Notes under the pieces: model-generated | Databases searched by the model: none | Told to the model about the DNA's origin: nothing | What the model saw: the letters and a program-made list of their open reading frames with translations, nothing else | Shown: positions 36,851 through 39,907 of the stretch, one piece after another | Position numbering within the stretch: the stretch's first letter is position 1 | Layout of the letters: every line of letters begins with the position of its first letter | Program-made: the position numbers and the translations under genes | Assembly (NCBI GenBank): GCA_947627215.1 | Contig: CANQVD010000029.1 | Span: 1-50,706, forward strand | DNA length: 50,706 nt | Direction: 5' to 3' | Source of the DNA: an uncultured Eisenbergiella sp. | Lineage (GTDB): Bacteria; Bacillota; Clostridia; Lachnospirales; Lachnospiraceae

Positions 36851-37264
36851 TCACCTCCTTCTCTTTTCCAGATATTTGTGGACGGAGGGCTGCAGATAGG
36901 CCGAAGCCTTCATCCCCATGAGTCCCAGAAACGCGGCGAGCGGATTCGCGCAGTCCGTCACCGTCAGGAACACGAACACGAGCACGATCACGCTGTAGCG
37001 CGCCAGACTCCTGACCGTCATGTATCTCTGCGCTCCGTCTCCCAGCTCCAGCGCCGCGTCCAGCGTCTTCCACATGTGCCAGACACAGGCGCAGGCCAGC
37101 AGGCAGCCGGCCAGCAGGCCCAACAGACAGCCGGGCACATCCTTCACAAACCAGGGCACGGTCAGCGCCGCCGCCAGCCCCCACAGGCCCACGCCCAGCC
37201 ACATTTCCTTCACCGTGCCGTTGATCCCCTTTAAAAAAGGAATCCGCTTCCAATACGGGATCAT
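36851..37264 (-). CDS. atpI: ATP synthase subunit I
   Basis: 137 residues from MIPYWKRIPFLKGINGTVKEM. The ATG overlaps the stop of the upstream gene (ATGA), with GGGAGGA upstream; the longer frame to 37420 is a shadow. Four membrane helices (WLGVGLWGLAAALTVPWF; CLLGLLAGCLLACACVW; ARYSVIVLVFVFLTVTDCANPLAAFLGLMGM) fit the ATP synthase I family, a helper of c-ring assembly. Position directly before atpB supports this. Confidence 0.82.
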   Translation of the reverse strand: MIPYWKRIPFLKGINGTVKEMWLGVGLWGLAAALTVPWFVKDVPGCLLGLLAGCLLACACVWHMWKTLDAALELGDGAQRYMTVRSLARYSVIVLVFVFLTVTDCANPLAAFLGLMGMKASAYLQPSVHKYLEKRRR

Positions 37265-37527
37265 TTTTTCCTCCCGTTCTCCCCGTCTCCCTCCCGGGCG
37301 CCGTCCCGGTTCCGAAACACCTGACGGGCCAGACGGTACACATTGCCAAAGCCCGCCAGCGCCCCCGCAAAAAACAGCGCCACCGCCAGAAAAGAAGTCC
37401 CCAGCAGTCCGTCCAGCCACCAGCCCAGCGCGAACATCAGCGCCATAGGGACCAGCATCGTGATGCCGAACTGGGAAAGAAGCGCCAGGCCCTGAAATAC
37501 GCTCCGATCATAACGGCGATGTGACAT
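37261..37527 (-). CDS. AtpZ/AtpI-family protein, first gene of the ATP synthase operon
   Basis: 88 residues from MSHRRYDRSVFQGLALLSQFGITML; GAGGAAAT precedes the ATG. Two membrane helices with the family pattern LALLSQFGITMLVPMALMFALGWWLDGLLG and AVALFFAGALAGFGNVYRL, then a basic tail. AtpZ-type proteins work with AtpI at the Fo sector and may carry divalent cations. It is translationally coupled to atpI by a 4-bp overlap and lies ~75 nt downstream of the operon promoter. Confidence 0.85.
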   Translation of the reverse strand: MSHRRYDRSVFQGLALLSQFGITMLVPMALMFALGWWLDGLLGTSFLAVALFFAGALAGFGNVYRLARQVFRNRDGAREGDGENGRKK

Positions 37528-37611
37528 ATTTCCTCGCTTCCCGGCGTTCCGAACGGCCGCGCGCACGGTATGCGCGCGCTCCGCCCCCCGCCGACAGACA
37601 CATTATGTAAA

Positions 37612-37640
37612 ATTATATCCATTTTTCCATGTCCTGTCCA
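37612..37640 (-). promoter_or_regulatory. Sigma-A promoter of the ATP synthase operon
   Basis: Minus strand TGGACA (37640-37635), 17-bp spacer, TATAAT (37617-37612). The leader contains an 8-bp CGCGCGCA/TGCGCGCG hairpin before the first gene. Confidence 0.75.
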
Positions 37641-37724
37641 TTTCTTTTCACAGGATTTTTCAATTTTTCACTATTTTTTTATTTTTCTGCAAGCGAATAG
37701 AAAAATCTATCATCAATGCTGCTG

Positions 37725-37753
37725 TTGACATTCCACCGGATTTTACATATAAT
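37725..37753 (+). promoter_or_regulatory. Perfect consensus sigma-A promoter for a small RNA
   Basis: TTGACA (37725-37730), 17-bp spacer, TATAAT (37748-37753). Nothing but a ~90-nt terminated RNA lies downstream on this strand. Confidence 0.9.
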
Positions 37754-37759
37754 GAAAGC

Positions 37760-37850
37760 AGAAAGAAGCACTGCGACAGGCAGTTGGCTTCGTTCGGGAA
37801 ACTAAACTATCTTAGCAACCGTCACTTGCCCTGACGGTTGCTGCTTTTTA
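37760..37850 (+). ncRNA. Small RNA, probable antitoxin of a type I toxin-antitoxin locus
   Basis: The ~90-nt transcript is defined by a consensus promoter at 37725-37753 and a strong intrinsic terminator (11-bp stem 37814-37824/37832-37842, then GCTTTTT). It has no ORF with a start site. The 5' part folds as AAGCACTG...CAGT-TG-GCTT (37766-37790). The 3' end is antisense to the last codons and stop of the 24-codon ORF at 37822-37896, read from the opposite strand. It does not show the signatures of SRP RNA, 6S RNA, tmRNA or a riboswitch class I know. Position and opposed promoters suggest an antisense regulator. Confidence 0.7.
37814..37849. terminator. Bidirectional terminator of the small RNA and the micro-ORF mRNA
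   Basis: AGCAACCGTCA pairs perfectly with TGACGGTTGCT around a 7-nt loop. A T run follows on the plus strand; the minus-strand T content is weaker (AAGATAGTTTAGTTT), so the mRNA may read further into antisense of the small RNA. Confidence 0.85.
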
Positions 37851-37896
37851 CGATTATCGTAACGGTAAACTTACCGATATGTAATGTAATCCGCAT
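37822..37896 (-). CDS. 24-residue peptide, candidate type I toxin
   Basis: ATG at 37896 with an exceptionally strong ribosome binding site, AAGGGGGTGAGG, 4 nt upstream. The peptide starts MRITLHIGKFTVTIIVK and ends in a polar tail (SSNRQGK). Alternating and hydrophobic residues with basic ends would allow membrane association. It has its own promoter (37974-38002) and a ~70-nt leader carrying a TGTCC/GGACA hairpin and the words GAAGCACTGC and GTTGGCT that also occur near the 5' end of the convergent small RNA. The stop codon lies inside the shared terminator stem. I do not recognise the peptide family. Toxicity is inferred from the arrangement. Confidence 0.65.
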   Translation of the reverse strand: MRITLHIGKFTVTIIVKSSNRQGK

Positions 37897-37973
37897 AAGC
37901 CTCACCCCCTTTCGAGGGATATCAGCCAACCGCCCTCCGCCTTGCAGTGCTTCCTGTCCAAAAGGACACTTGT

Positions 37974-38002
37974 ATTCTATCAATGCTTTATTTCTATGTC
38001 AA
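37974..38002 (-). promoter_or_regulatory. Sigma-A promoter of the micro-ORF mRNA
   Basis: Minus strand TTGACA (38002-37997), 17-bp spacer, TAGAAT (37979-37974). Transcription starts near 37967, facing the small-RNA promoter 220 bp away. Confidence 0.8.
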
Positions 38003-38044
38003 TCTGCCCCCCAGAACTTTTTCTTTTTCTTTTTGCCGTCAGCC

Positions 38045-39907
38045 TCACCCCGTATAATACTGGGCCTGCGCCTGCCAGAGTTCGTGATATTTGCCGCCCT
38101 CGTCCGCGGCCAGCTCGTCGTGGGTGCCCCGCTGGACGATGCGCCCCTCGTGGAACACGGCGATCTCGTCGCAGAACTTGCAGGAGGACAGGCGGTGGGA
38201 AATGTAGATGGCGGTCCTGTCGCCGGAGATCTCATTGAATTTGCTGTAGATCTCCGCCTCCGCGATGGGGTCCAGCGCCGCGGTGGGCTCATCCAAGATG
38301 ATGAACGGGGCGTTCTTGTAAAGCGCCCGGGCGATGGCGATCTTCTGCGCCTCGCCGCCGGAGATCTCCACGCCGTCCTCCGTGAAATCTCTGTACAACT
38401 GGGTGTTCAGCCCATCCGGCATGGTCTCCAGACGGTCGCCGAACCCGGCGTCCCGCAGCGCCTTTCGCACCCTCGTCTCATCATACGACGCGCTGCCCGC
38501 CACATTGGCGCCCAGCGGCTGAGAGATCAACTGAAAGTCCTGGAACACGACGGAAAAGATGTCCATATAGTCGCGGTAATCGTACTTGCGGATATCGATG
38601 CCGTTCAGCAGGATCTGGCCCTCCTGGGGATCGTACAGACGGCACAGCAGCTTGATAAAGGTGGTCTTGCCGCTGCCGTTCTCTCCCACGATCGCCAGCC
38701 GCCGTCCCACCTGGAACTTCATGCTGACATTTTTCAGCGCCCAGGTCCCGGCGCCCGGATACCGGAACGAGACGTTCCGGAACTCCACCTCGTACTGCCG
38801 GTCAGAGCGCTTTTCCGTGGTCAGGCTTCCCTGATACATGGCGTTGGGGAGATCCAGGAGCCGGAAGGTGGTATCCAGATAGCCCGTATTCGTCCGCAGA
38901 TACCCGAACAGGTAGGTCAGTTCGAAAATGCTTCCCGTCATGGCGGTCACGGCGCCCACATACTGGGTAACGCTGCCCACATCAAAGGCGCCCGCCCATG
39001 CCTTCAGACAGGTGAAGACATACACAAAGCCGGTGGTCACCACCGTGATGCCGTTTCCCAGGCCGCTGAAGATCCCGATCGGCCCCCGCGCCCGCTTCGC
39101 CAGGAGGCCGTCCGCGCCAAAGGCCCTGTTTTTGTCCCAATAGGCGCTGACCAGATTCTGCTGGTCATACATCCGGATGTCGGCTCCGCGGCCTTTCTTC
39201 AGACCGATGAACCCGAAGAAGCCGAACAGGCGGTTGCCCAGGGTGGCCTCTTCCGCGGCGCTGCTCCAGTAAGAGATGGCCTTTCCGCTGCAGACACCGG
39301 CGGCCAGGCTGACCAGCACGATGACCGCCGCCAGCACAAACAGGAATACGGGGCTGTTCAGGAGGACGAACCGCCCGGCGGTTTCCGGGACAGGCGTCGT
39401 GAACAGGCTCACCGTCAGGGCGATGCCGCTCAGGATCCCGGTGACACCCTTCAGACCGATCTCATAAACCGGCGGAATGCACATCAGGCCCCAGCTCGAC
39501 CAGTTTTCATTCTGCCGGATCTGTTCCCGCAGATCCCGGTTCTCCTGCCGGTCCAGATCGGCATAATCCAGAGAAAACATCTTCCGCACAAAGATGATCT
39601 CCTTCCGTCCGTACAGATCGTCCAGCAGCGTTTCTTTCCGCTGGTACAGGAAGGATTTCAGCATCGCCAGCAGAGCGGTACACAGCACACCGGCGGCGAT
39701 CCACTGCCACAGCACGTCCGCGCGGCGCGACAGTGCCAGCTCCTTCAAAATATGTGCCGAAAAGAATACCGTCACATAGGGCGTCAGGGCATCGGCGACG
39801 GCGCAGAACGTCAGGACCGGAAAAAACCGGGGGCTCACCCCGCCCAGCATCCGCGCGCCCCGCAGATGCACGGAAAGCGCATGGCGCATCGTATTTTTCT
39901 TTTCCAT
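38045..39907 (-). CDS. ABC transporter, fused membrane and ATPase domains (second of pair)
   Basis: 620 residues; AAAGGAG lies 8 nt before the ATG. The membrane domain spans ~1-330 with about six helices. The ATPase has Walker A VGENGSGKTTFIKLL, signature ISGGEAQKIAIARALYK (SGGE instead of SGGQ), Walker B FIILDEPTAALDP and the H-loop IYISHRLSS. It starts 2 bp after the partner gene at 39910-41718 ends, so the two probably form a heterodimeric exporter of a peptide, lipid or drug. The substrate is unknown. The LytTR/GHKL regulators upstream suggest a peptide-type signal. Confidence 0.92.
   Translation of the reverse strand: MEKKNTMRHALSVHLRGARMLGGVSPRFFPVLTFCAVADALTPYVTVFFSAHILKELALSRRADVLWQWIAAGVLCTALLAMLKSFLYQRKETLLDDLYGRKEIIFVRKMFSLDYADLDRQENRDLREQIRQNENWSSWGLMCIPPVYEIGLKGVTGILSGIALTVSLFTTPVPETAGRFVLLNSPVFLFVLAAVIVLVSLAAGVCSGKAISYWSSAAEEATLGNRLFGFFGFIGLKKGRGADIRMYDQQNLVSAYWDKNRAFGADGLLAKRARGPIGIFSGLGNGITVVTTGFVYVFTCLKAWAGAFDVGSVTQYVGAVTAMTGSIFELTYLFGYLRTNTGYLDTTFRLLDLPNAMYQGSLTTEKRSDRQYEVEFRNVSFRYPGAGTWALKNVSMKFQVGRRLAIVGENGSGKTTFIKLLCRLYDPQEGQILLNGIDIRKYDYRDYMDIFSVVFQDFQLISQPLGANVAGSASYDETRVRKALRDAGFGDRLETMPDGLNTQLYRDFTEDGVEISGGEAQKIAIARALYKNAPFIILDEPTAALDPIAEAEIYSKFNEISGDRTAIYISHRLSSCKFCDEIAVFHEGRIVQRGTHDELAADEGGKYHELWQAQAQYYTG

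Follow-up and report, generated by a model that had tools for sequence, protein, structure and literature searches.

The window (the whole stretch of DNA that was analysed, 50,706 nucleotides from an uncultured Eisenbergiella sp.) contains, at 37725-38002, an intergenic locus flanked by an ABC-transporter pair on one side and by the first atp operon genes on the other, in which a sequence scan places two converging consensus promoters with a small ORF and an opposing antisense RNA between them. The antisense RNA promoter (plus strand, 37725..37753) reads TTGACA-17-TATAAT, a 12/12 consensus match, and the promoter of the peptide mRNA (minus strand, 37974..38002) reads TTGACA-17-TAGAAT, an 11/12 match with a TG before the -10 element and a position that is kept in homologues. 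Within 37000-39000 there are four promoter-like sites, compared with 0.7 +/- 0.7 in shuffled sequences. The peptide mRNA, a putative toxin message of about 210 nt, would span 37758..37967 on the minus strand, both of its ends being deduced from the promoter and from a U-rich stretch. The antisense RNA, the putative antitoxin, would span 37760..37849 on the plus strand (about 90 nt, its ends likewise deduced) and comprise a 5' stem-loop, an unpaired linker of 17 nt and a terminator hairpin.

The features of the mRNA, all on the minus strand, start with a small 5' hairpin evident in sequence and fold (TGTCC-TTTT-GGACA, 37955..37968), followed by the 5' arms of two long-range helices, helix A (GAAGCACTGC, 37944..37953) and helix B (GGCGGTTGGCT, 37924..37934), both recognised as inverted pairs, by RNAalifold and by covariation. 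Next come a hairpin predicted to sequester the Shine-Dalgarno (SD) sequence (CCCTC-GAAA-GGGGG, 37905..37918), the SD itself (GGGGGTGAGG, 37900..37909, read from the sequence) and the ORF (37822..37896), which encodes the 24-residue, predicted beta-hairpin peptide MRITLHIGKFTVTIIVKSSNRQGK. Downstream of the ORF lie the 3' arm of helix B (the complement of GGCAGTTGGCT, 37779..37789; RNAalifold and covariation) and the 3' arm of helix A (GCAGTGCTTC, 37765..37774; inverted pair, RNAalifold and covariation), the latter followed by the U-rich stretch. On the plus strand, the antisense terminator hairpin (37814..37842) overlaps the end of the ORF with a perfect 11-bp stem (37814-37824 / 37832-37842), after which a T tract (37845-37849) gives the antisense RNA its length of about 90 nt. 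A sequence-only reading of this DNA had described the facing promoters, the RNA of about 90 nt ending at a perfect 11-bp stem, the 24-codon ORF with its stop in that stem and two repeated words, and each of these observations holds: the word GAAGCACTGC at 37765-37774 (plus) and 37953-37944 (minus) forms a perfect 10-nt inverted pair, and GTTGGCT falls inside a 22-nt inverted pair with 73% identity. An Rfam scan of the window gave no match at the gathering score (two chance-level matches had E 3.1-3.6), and in 19 further loci the same scan found only a cobalamin riboswitch and tRNA, both away from the conserved RNA layout, here called the chassis. The riboswitch (L146:119-319) lies about 1.2 kb from its chassis locus.

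Relatives of the peptide occur in 19 of 397 same-family genomes, at 25 places. Scanning a genome collection with a 24-row alignment yielded 286 relatives among 418 pattern matches, and the best 80 of these 286, which were kept, bear Lachnospiraceae and Oscillospiraceae titles, including Flavonifractor, Oscillibacter and Clostridium porci, with uncultured Lachnospiraceae as the best-scoring named homologues. Cultured carriers of the unit include Flavonifractor plautii ATCC 29863 (L051) and Oscillibacter valericigenes An907 (L075). A further 17 peptide loci are found on IMG/VR contigs; phage records gave no peptide match at E up to 10, and plasmid records, at the same limit, gave one (Vescimonas), with no annotated feature beneath it. 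In two of the IMG/VR loci the unit lies less than 3 kb from a tail sheath gene (L109) or a major tail protein gene (L115), which places some copies in phage structural regions. None of six peptide fragments was found in the literature, and no title or abstract opening among the papers listed on type I systems and related topics describes this family.

Genomes may hold several copies. That of the window has three clear members, namely the window locus, a contig-edge copy (G000:C73:1-76, L002, cut by the contig start) and C87:4976-5213 (L164 in genome G000), which encodes a MPITLTFHVLFW-type variant; two more places in it score E 0.31 and 0.77. With a view to locus-specific recognition through the linker, paralogues within single genomes were compared: linker and ORF identities are 0.42 and 0.64, respectively, among six copies in one genome (a seventh was dropped, having no ORF by the rule applied), and 0.53 and 0.60 among seven copies in another. 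Tandem or partly duplicated units within a few hundred bases are seen in L019/L026 (G252:C39), L007 and L018. In L020, L027 and L076 the 5' leader is replaced and the 3' antisense-coding part retained, as it would be in an orphan antitoxin, with an antisense promoter scoring 12/12 in L020 and L076 and only 8/12 in L027; from the ORF onward, L076 is nearly identical to a phage-contig copy, L111.

Among 113 distinct loci, the antisense promoter reaches at least 11/12 in 102 of the 111 that could be scored (1/555 in simple shuffles), and the sense promoter reaches at least 10/12 in 74 of 112 (9/560 in simple shuffles), being weak (below 10/12) in the other 38 of 112. Judged by consensus match alone, the antisense promoter is therefore the better kept of the two. 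By sequence, the gene of the antisense RNA overlaps the small-peptide mRNA, with promoters, terminator and overlap all conserved, which supports the convergent type I toxin-antitoxin arrangement that had been proposed from the window.

The ORF is under coding selection. In codons 2-16, pN/pS is 0.14, compared with 1.95 and 3.02 in the other frames (78 distinct ORFs; samples of 1500 and 600 pairs), a ratio in which pN is lowered by the gathering of the loci through peptide similarity. Conservation of the ORF, which the earlier reading had made a point of, is thereby found in homologues across genera. In the same 78 ORFs T11 and T13 never vary, and 13 different amino acids occur at position 9. 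An AlphaFold2 model of a 30-residue family member (L124, with a 28-row alignment) places strands at residues 2-7 and 10-15 and a turn at G8-x9, with mean pLDDT values by successive tens of residues of 92, 84 and 56 and a pTM of 0.32. In 86/86 loci the hydrophobic moment at 170 degrees exceeds that at 100 degrees, as it also does in two of nine transmembrane-type mates on the chassis (L209 and L211). The maximum 15-residue hydropathy of the window peptide is 1.30, against 2.09-3.39 in nine chassis-mates, and the hydrophobic alpha-helical transmembrane toxin that is usual, not universal, in type I systems is not what this ORF encodes. The peptide is thus modelled as an amphipathic beta-hairpin with a polar face formed by T4, H6, T11 and T13 and a free turn residue.

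The window peptide matches no family in Pfam, NCBIfam, PHROG or PADLOC, in keeping with the earlier remark that it is not a recognised Fst, TxpA or Ldr sequence; one PDB match has E 5.4, and the putative holin-like toxin family Hol_Tox (PF16935) gives no match to it at E up to 10. Kinship with YrzI (PF09501) was considered and set aside as a lead only, the MPITLTF-type variants scoring below the cut-off (L142, E 0.019; L022, E 0.061). These MPITLTFHVFG-type peptides are weakly like Bacillus YrzI, which could be a further beta-type small peptide. Transmembrane helices are the build of the membrane type I toxins described in the available excerpts of a review (PMC8309996). If the window peptide is a toxin, it would be of another build, because a beta-hairpin and not a transmembrane helix is predicted for it.

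The second conserved component is the structure of the mRNA. The arms were analysed in 106 usable loci, 86 of them non-redundant, of which 80 were used for RNAalifold, the six left out having arms judged to be partly or wholly missing. In the 86 loci, a 5' arm on average fits the 3' arm of its own locus better than those of other loci (mean score 10.40 compared with 7.73, sd 0.15; 0/20,000 permutations). RNAalifold, run unguided on the 80 loci, links the leader to the 3' region through helix A (8 pairs) and helix B (14 pairs), 22 long-range pairs in total, with 95.4% of the cells of the resulting structure paired as against 35-50% when one side is slid. Doubly changed cells number 281 compared with 80 in shuffles, a value that 0/500 shuffles reach, and double changes are seen in 23 of the 33 pairs of the structure. 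Single-sequence folds hold most of helix A or B in 79/80 loci; in the window, the mRNA fold has an energy of -87.6 kcal/mol and helix A a pairing probability of 0.95-1. At least four of five SD bases are paired in 75/80 loci (mean MFE -15.1 compared with -8.0 in simple shuffles), which places the SD in a short G-C helix. The compensatory changes indicate that the inverted words are the two halves of a long-range helix that closes the peptide mRNA 5' to 3', and the arms constitute strong evolutionary evidence for a 5'-3' closed mRNA of the small-toxin type in Gram-positive bacteria.

Searching for small toxin genes by protein sequence is difficult, as their peptides are short and fast-changing. 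The chassis is searchable because the RNA wrapper, and not the peptide, is the conserved part. A covariance model (R1) built from the 80 loci matches 60 of 250 same-family genomes, including that of the window, at E up to 0.01; seven of these show a short match on the ORF-end hairpin only, so that 53/250 genomes, counted from the listing, match over the whole model. The covariance search suggested by the sequence-only reading, like its peptide search, has returned homologues, and a single RNA model finds small-toxin-type loci around several kinds of peptide. Of the 60 new loci inspected by eye, 47 carry transmembrane-type peptides unlike that of the window, eight carry beta-type peptides (some of them broken) and five lack a whole peptide. 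A set of 38 loci, obtained from the 47 by removing ten (nine close relatives of kept rows, and L195) and adding L155, folds alike, unguided, with 23 long-range pairs, so that closure of the mRNA by a helix between its 5' and 3' parts is found in both the 80- and the 38-locus sets. When 18 transmembrane-type peptides were scanned in Pfam, three scored above the Hol_Tox cut-off of 23.3 bits (L189, 57.8; L198, 32.9; L153, 27.8), four more matched that family at E below 0.01 and 11 did not. Beyond the family, at E up to 0.001, the model recognises 44 of 291 genomes in a sample of the class and 22 of 299 in a sample of the phylum; a small number of these matches are partial, and there are at most seven matches per genome and further peptide types. 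On this comparative evidence, the same RNA layout surrounds unrelated transmembrane-type peptides in many related bacteria.

The locus is probably a chromosomal type I toxin-antitoxin module built on a chassis of the bsrE/SR5 type, with the predicted beta-hairpin as its putative toxin. Established at the level of sequence are the convergent promoters, the closure of the mRNA by compensatory change, the SD hairpin, the coding ORF and the conserved antisense promoter and terminator; it may be inferred that the peptide is toxic and that the antisense RNA silences it. Counting against this reading are the weak sense promoters in part of the family, the loci that lack arms, the low scores of the model on Bacilli loci, the share of the G-U excess that is family consensus, the lowering of pN by sampling through peptide similarity, and a peptide that is no transmembrane helix. 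The main rival, an unlikely one, keeps the same RNA switch and makes its product an antisense-controlled small regulatory, signalling or envelope-acting peptide instead of a toxin. It would account for a predicted amphipathic beta-hairpin that has a conserved polar face, a free turn residue, no hydrophobic helix and no database family. Against it, Hol_Tox and other peptides of the transmembrane type occur in the same chassis, and a closed, SD-locked and antisense-covered message suits a harmful product. The chassis is, moreover, patchy and multi-copy, and its intergenic copies have no fixed neighbours, a distribution resembling that of toxin-antitoxin modules. Toxic beta-hairpin peptides would be an exception to the rule of transmembrane helices among membrane type I toxins, and non-toxic ones would mean that a toxin-antitoxin chassis now serves a different purpose.

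Far less probable is a par/fst-like locus, as favoured by the sequence-only reading, in which the repeats would bring the two RNAs together by swapped or kissing pairing where they share a bidirectional terminator. In the available excerpts of PMC7472228, par/fst of pAD1 has convergent promoters, an SD in a stem-loop, direct repeats and a bidirectional terminator, so that convergent promoters, an overlapping hairpin, an SD in an intramolecular stem-loop and 5' repeats are all present in par in some form, the promoters and the stem-loop being shared outright. The repeats of par are direct and read oppositely, whereas those of the window locus are inverted, covary as a helix in one RNA, with G-U pairs in the mRNA strand, and pair inside the mRNA, so that the inverted words would not serve RNA-RNA kissing. 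The terminator is likewise one-sided. Just after the ORF-end hairpin, a U run of at least four occurs on the antisense strand in 64/80 loci and on the mRNA strand in 11/80, and the window has no U tract on the mRNA side; the stem is therefore not a shared bidirectional terminator here and would terminate mainly the antisense RNA. In the transmembrane-type set such a run is present on the antisense side in 36/38 loci and on the mRNA side in 23/38, and because of the latter the hairpin may be bidirectional there. The peptide, finally, lacks any Pfam or NCBIfam match that would make it Fst or Ldr. From the earlier interpretation, the type I layout, the novel peptide and the conserved ORF and RNA are retained, and the par/fst-like terminator and the kissing repeats are abandoned. 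The U tract of the antisense terminator faces the codons of Val16-Lys17-Ser18 (VKS here, KK in the transmembrane types), and a U tract opposite lysine codons may be the reason why these small peptides have ends rich in lysine.

The inverted repeats could also act at the DNA level, as the ends of a small mobile element or as a protein-binding palindrome, since they lie close to the two ends of a 280-bp unit whose copies are scattered over unrelated places, with tandem copies in L019/L026. This very improbable explanation was rejected on the strand bias of the mismatches, because neither DNA pairing nor protein binding would favour one strand, and here G-U is tolerated in the mRNA strand: helices A and B together show 218 G-U against 26 A-C mismatches (32:11 in helix A and 186:15 in helix B, or 72:15 without its two mostly G-U columns), and two helix pairs are mostly G-U, in 64/80 and 50/80 loci. 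The ratio is reversed in the ORF-end hairpin (3:13, small counts), and the 38-locus set gives 120 G-U against 32 A-C in the long-range pairs and 9 against 19 in the hairpin. Because the excess flips between them, the arms appear to work in the mRNA and the ORF-end hairpin in the antisense RNA. Part of the bias reflects the family consensus, since G-U already makes up 70-76% when arms of different loci are paired at random, compared with 82% within loci. A leader peptide or attenuator for a neighbouring gene, to which a short intergenic ORF with a strong ribosome binding site beside the ABC-transporter pair and the atp operon might point, has next to no likelihood, as no neighbour is common to more than 4/85 loci, neighbours stand in all four orientations, the ORF contains no run of one amino acid and it is the mRNA's own 3' end that closes the molecule.

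Returning to the toxin-antitoxin reading, its operation can be envisaged as follows. The mRNA would read through the ORF-end hairpin, end after the 3' arm and fold into a closed, stable and translation-poor form; because it folds closed, toxin would be made only if something opens or trims it. The antisense RNA, made from the better promoter and perfectly complementary to the mRNA in its 3' part, which it covers, would make contact through its unpaired linker or loops, displace the 5' arm from the 3' arm and hand the duplex to RNase III. Such displacement is expected because the antisense duplex is perfect (the antisense RNA matches the 3' half of the long-range helix without mismatch), whereas the internal helix contains common G-U pairs and an internal loop. 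The energies calculated for the window are -87.6 kcal/mol for the mRNA, as given above, -34.0 for the antisense RNA and -216.3 for their complex; the 5' leader binds the 3' region with -45.6 kcal/mol and the 5' part of the antisense RNA binds it with -84.4. Two near-identical arms would thus compete for one target, with the 5' end keeping the message silent and the antisense RNA marking it for destruction. Once the supply of antisense RNA is exhausted or the mRNA has been processed, the peptide would be made and would harm or arrest its own cell.

A wider reading, for and against which the balance is about equal, takes this arrangement as one antisense-controlled chassis that extends across the Clostridia (a class assigned by named relatives), is weakly visible in Bacillus and serves as a socket for swapped, unrelated small toxins. 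Lachnospiraceae and Oscillospiraceae would have gained in it an amphipathic beta-hairpin toxin of 24-30 residues in which a single turn position is hypervariable; as far as the available excerpts of the reviews go, it would be the first type I toxin acting on the membrane or envelope to depart from the alpha-helix. The 5' end of the mRNA would mimic that of the antitoxin, and because of this mimicry the message would carry its own inhibitor in cis, which the antisense RNA would replace in trans.

Among known systems, several share individual features with the window locus. In the available excerpts of PMC6733600, the toxin mRNAs of aapA/IsoA (Helicobacter) and hok/sok are silenced by a 5'-3' long-distance interaction. 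The likeness to aapA/IsoA in this respect says how control may work and does not speak of kinship; there the 3' end masks the SD, whereas here a separate hairpin holds the SD, and the long-range helix lies upstream of it. Hol_Tox is linked to the locus through its members L189, L198 and L153, which sit in the same RNA chassis, unlike the window's own peptide, which has no match to that family.

The most extensive likeness is to bsrE/SR5 and bsrG/SR4, together with bsrH and txpA/RatA. In the excerpts available from two reviews (PMC6562991, PMC7430163), the SDs of txpA, bsrE and bsrG are locked in 4-5 G-C pairs, SR5 and the bsrE mRNA overlap by 114 bp at their 3' ends, the sr4 promoter is 6-10 times stronger than that of bsrG, and loci exist with BsrE/H in place of BsrG, so that toxin exchange on a conserved locus has already been proposed. 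SR4 is reported to target, by pairing, the 3' portion of helix P1 in bsrG RNA, and SR5 and bsrE to behave alike (PMC6562991, in part); from these excerpts and the folds described next, helix P1 is read as the 5'-3' closure. Folds of six bsrE-like loci from Bacilli records (pBS72, plaBV1, SPbetaL8 and three more) contain 18-36 leader-to-3' pairs, with the SD fully paired in four of the six and no SD pattern found in the other two; these folds rest on guessed transcript ends and weak promoter matches (9-10/12) and carry no shuffle control. The window locus shares with this group the 3'-overlapping genes, the SD in a G-C helix and an antisense promoter that is the stronger one by consensus match only. 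Its product differs, a predicted beta-hairpin of 24 residues taking the place of transmembrane-domain toxins of 29-59 residues (PMC7430163, in part); its antisense RNA is shorter (about 90 nt compared with 163-222 nt) and has its terminator inside the ORF, and R1 scores only weakly near the ORF in the Bacilli loci (L265, 16.6; L264, 15.9; L267, 10.6; L263, 8.8; L268, 8.0; L266, 2.9 bits). Because the reviewed features and the folds of the bsrE-like Bacilli loci are alike, the chassis is assigned to the bsrE/SR5 kind, for which common descent with the Bacillus bsrE loci appears likely, and the closest known relative of the locus is bsrE/SR5 and its kin, not fst.
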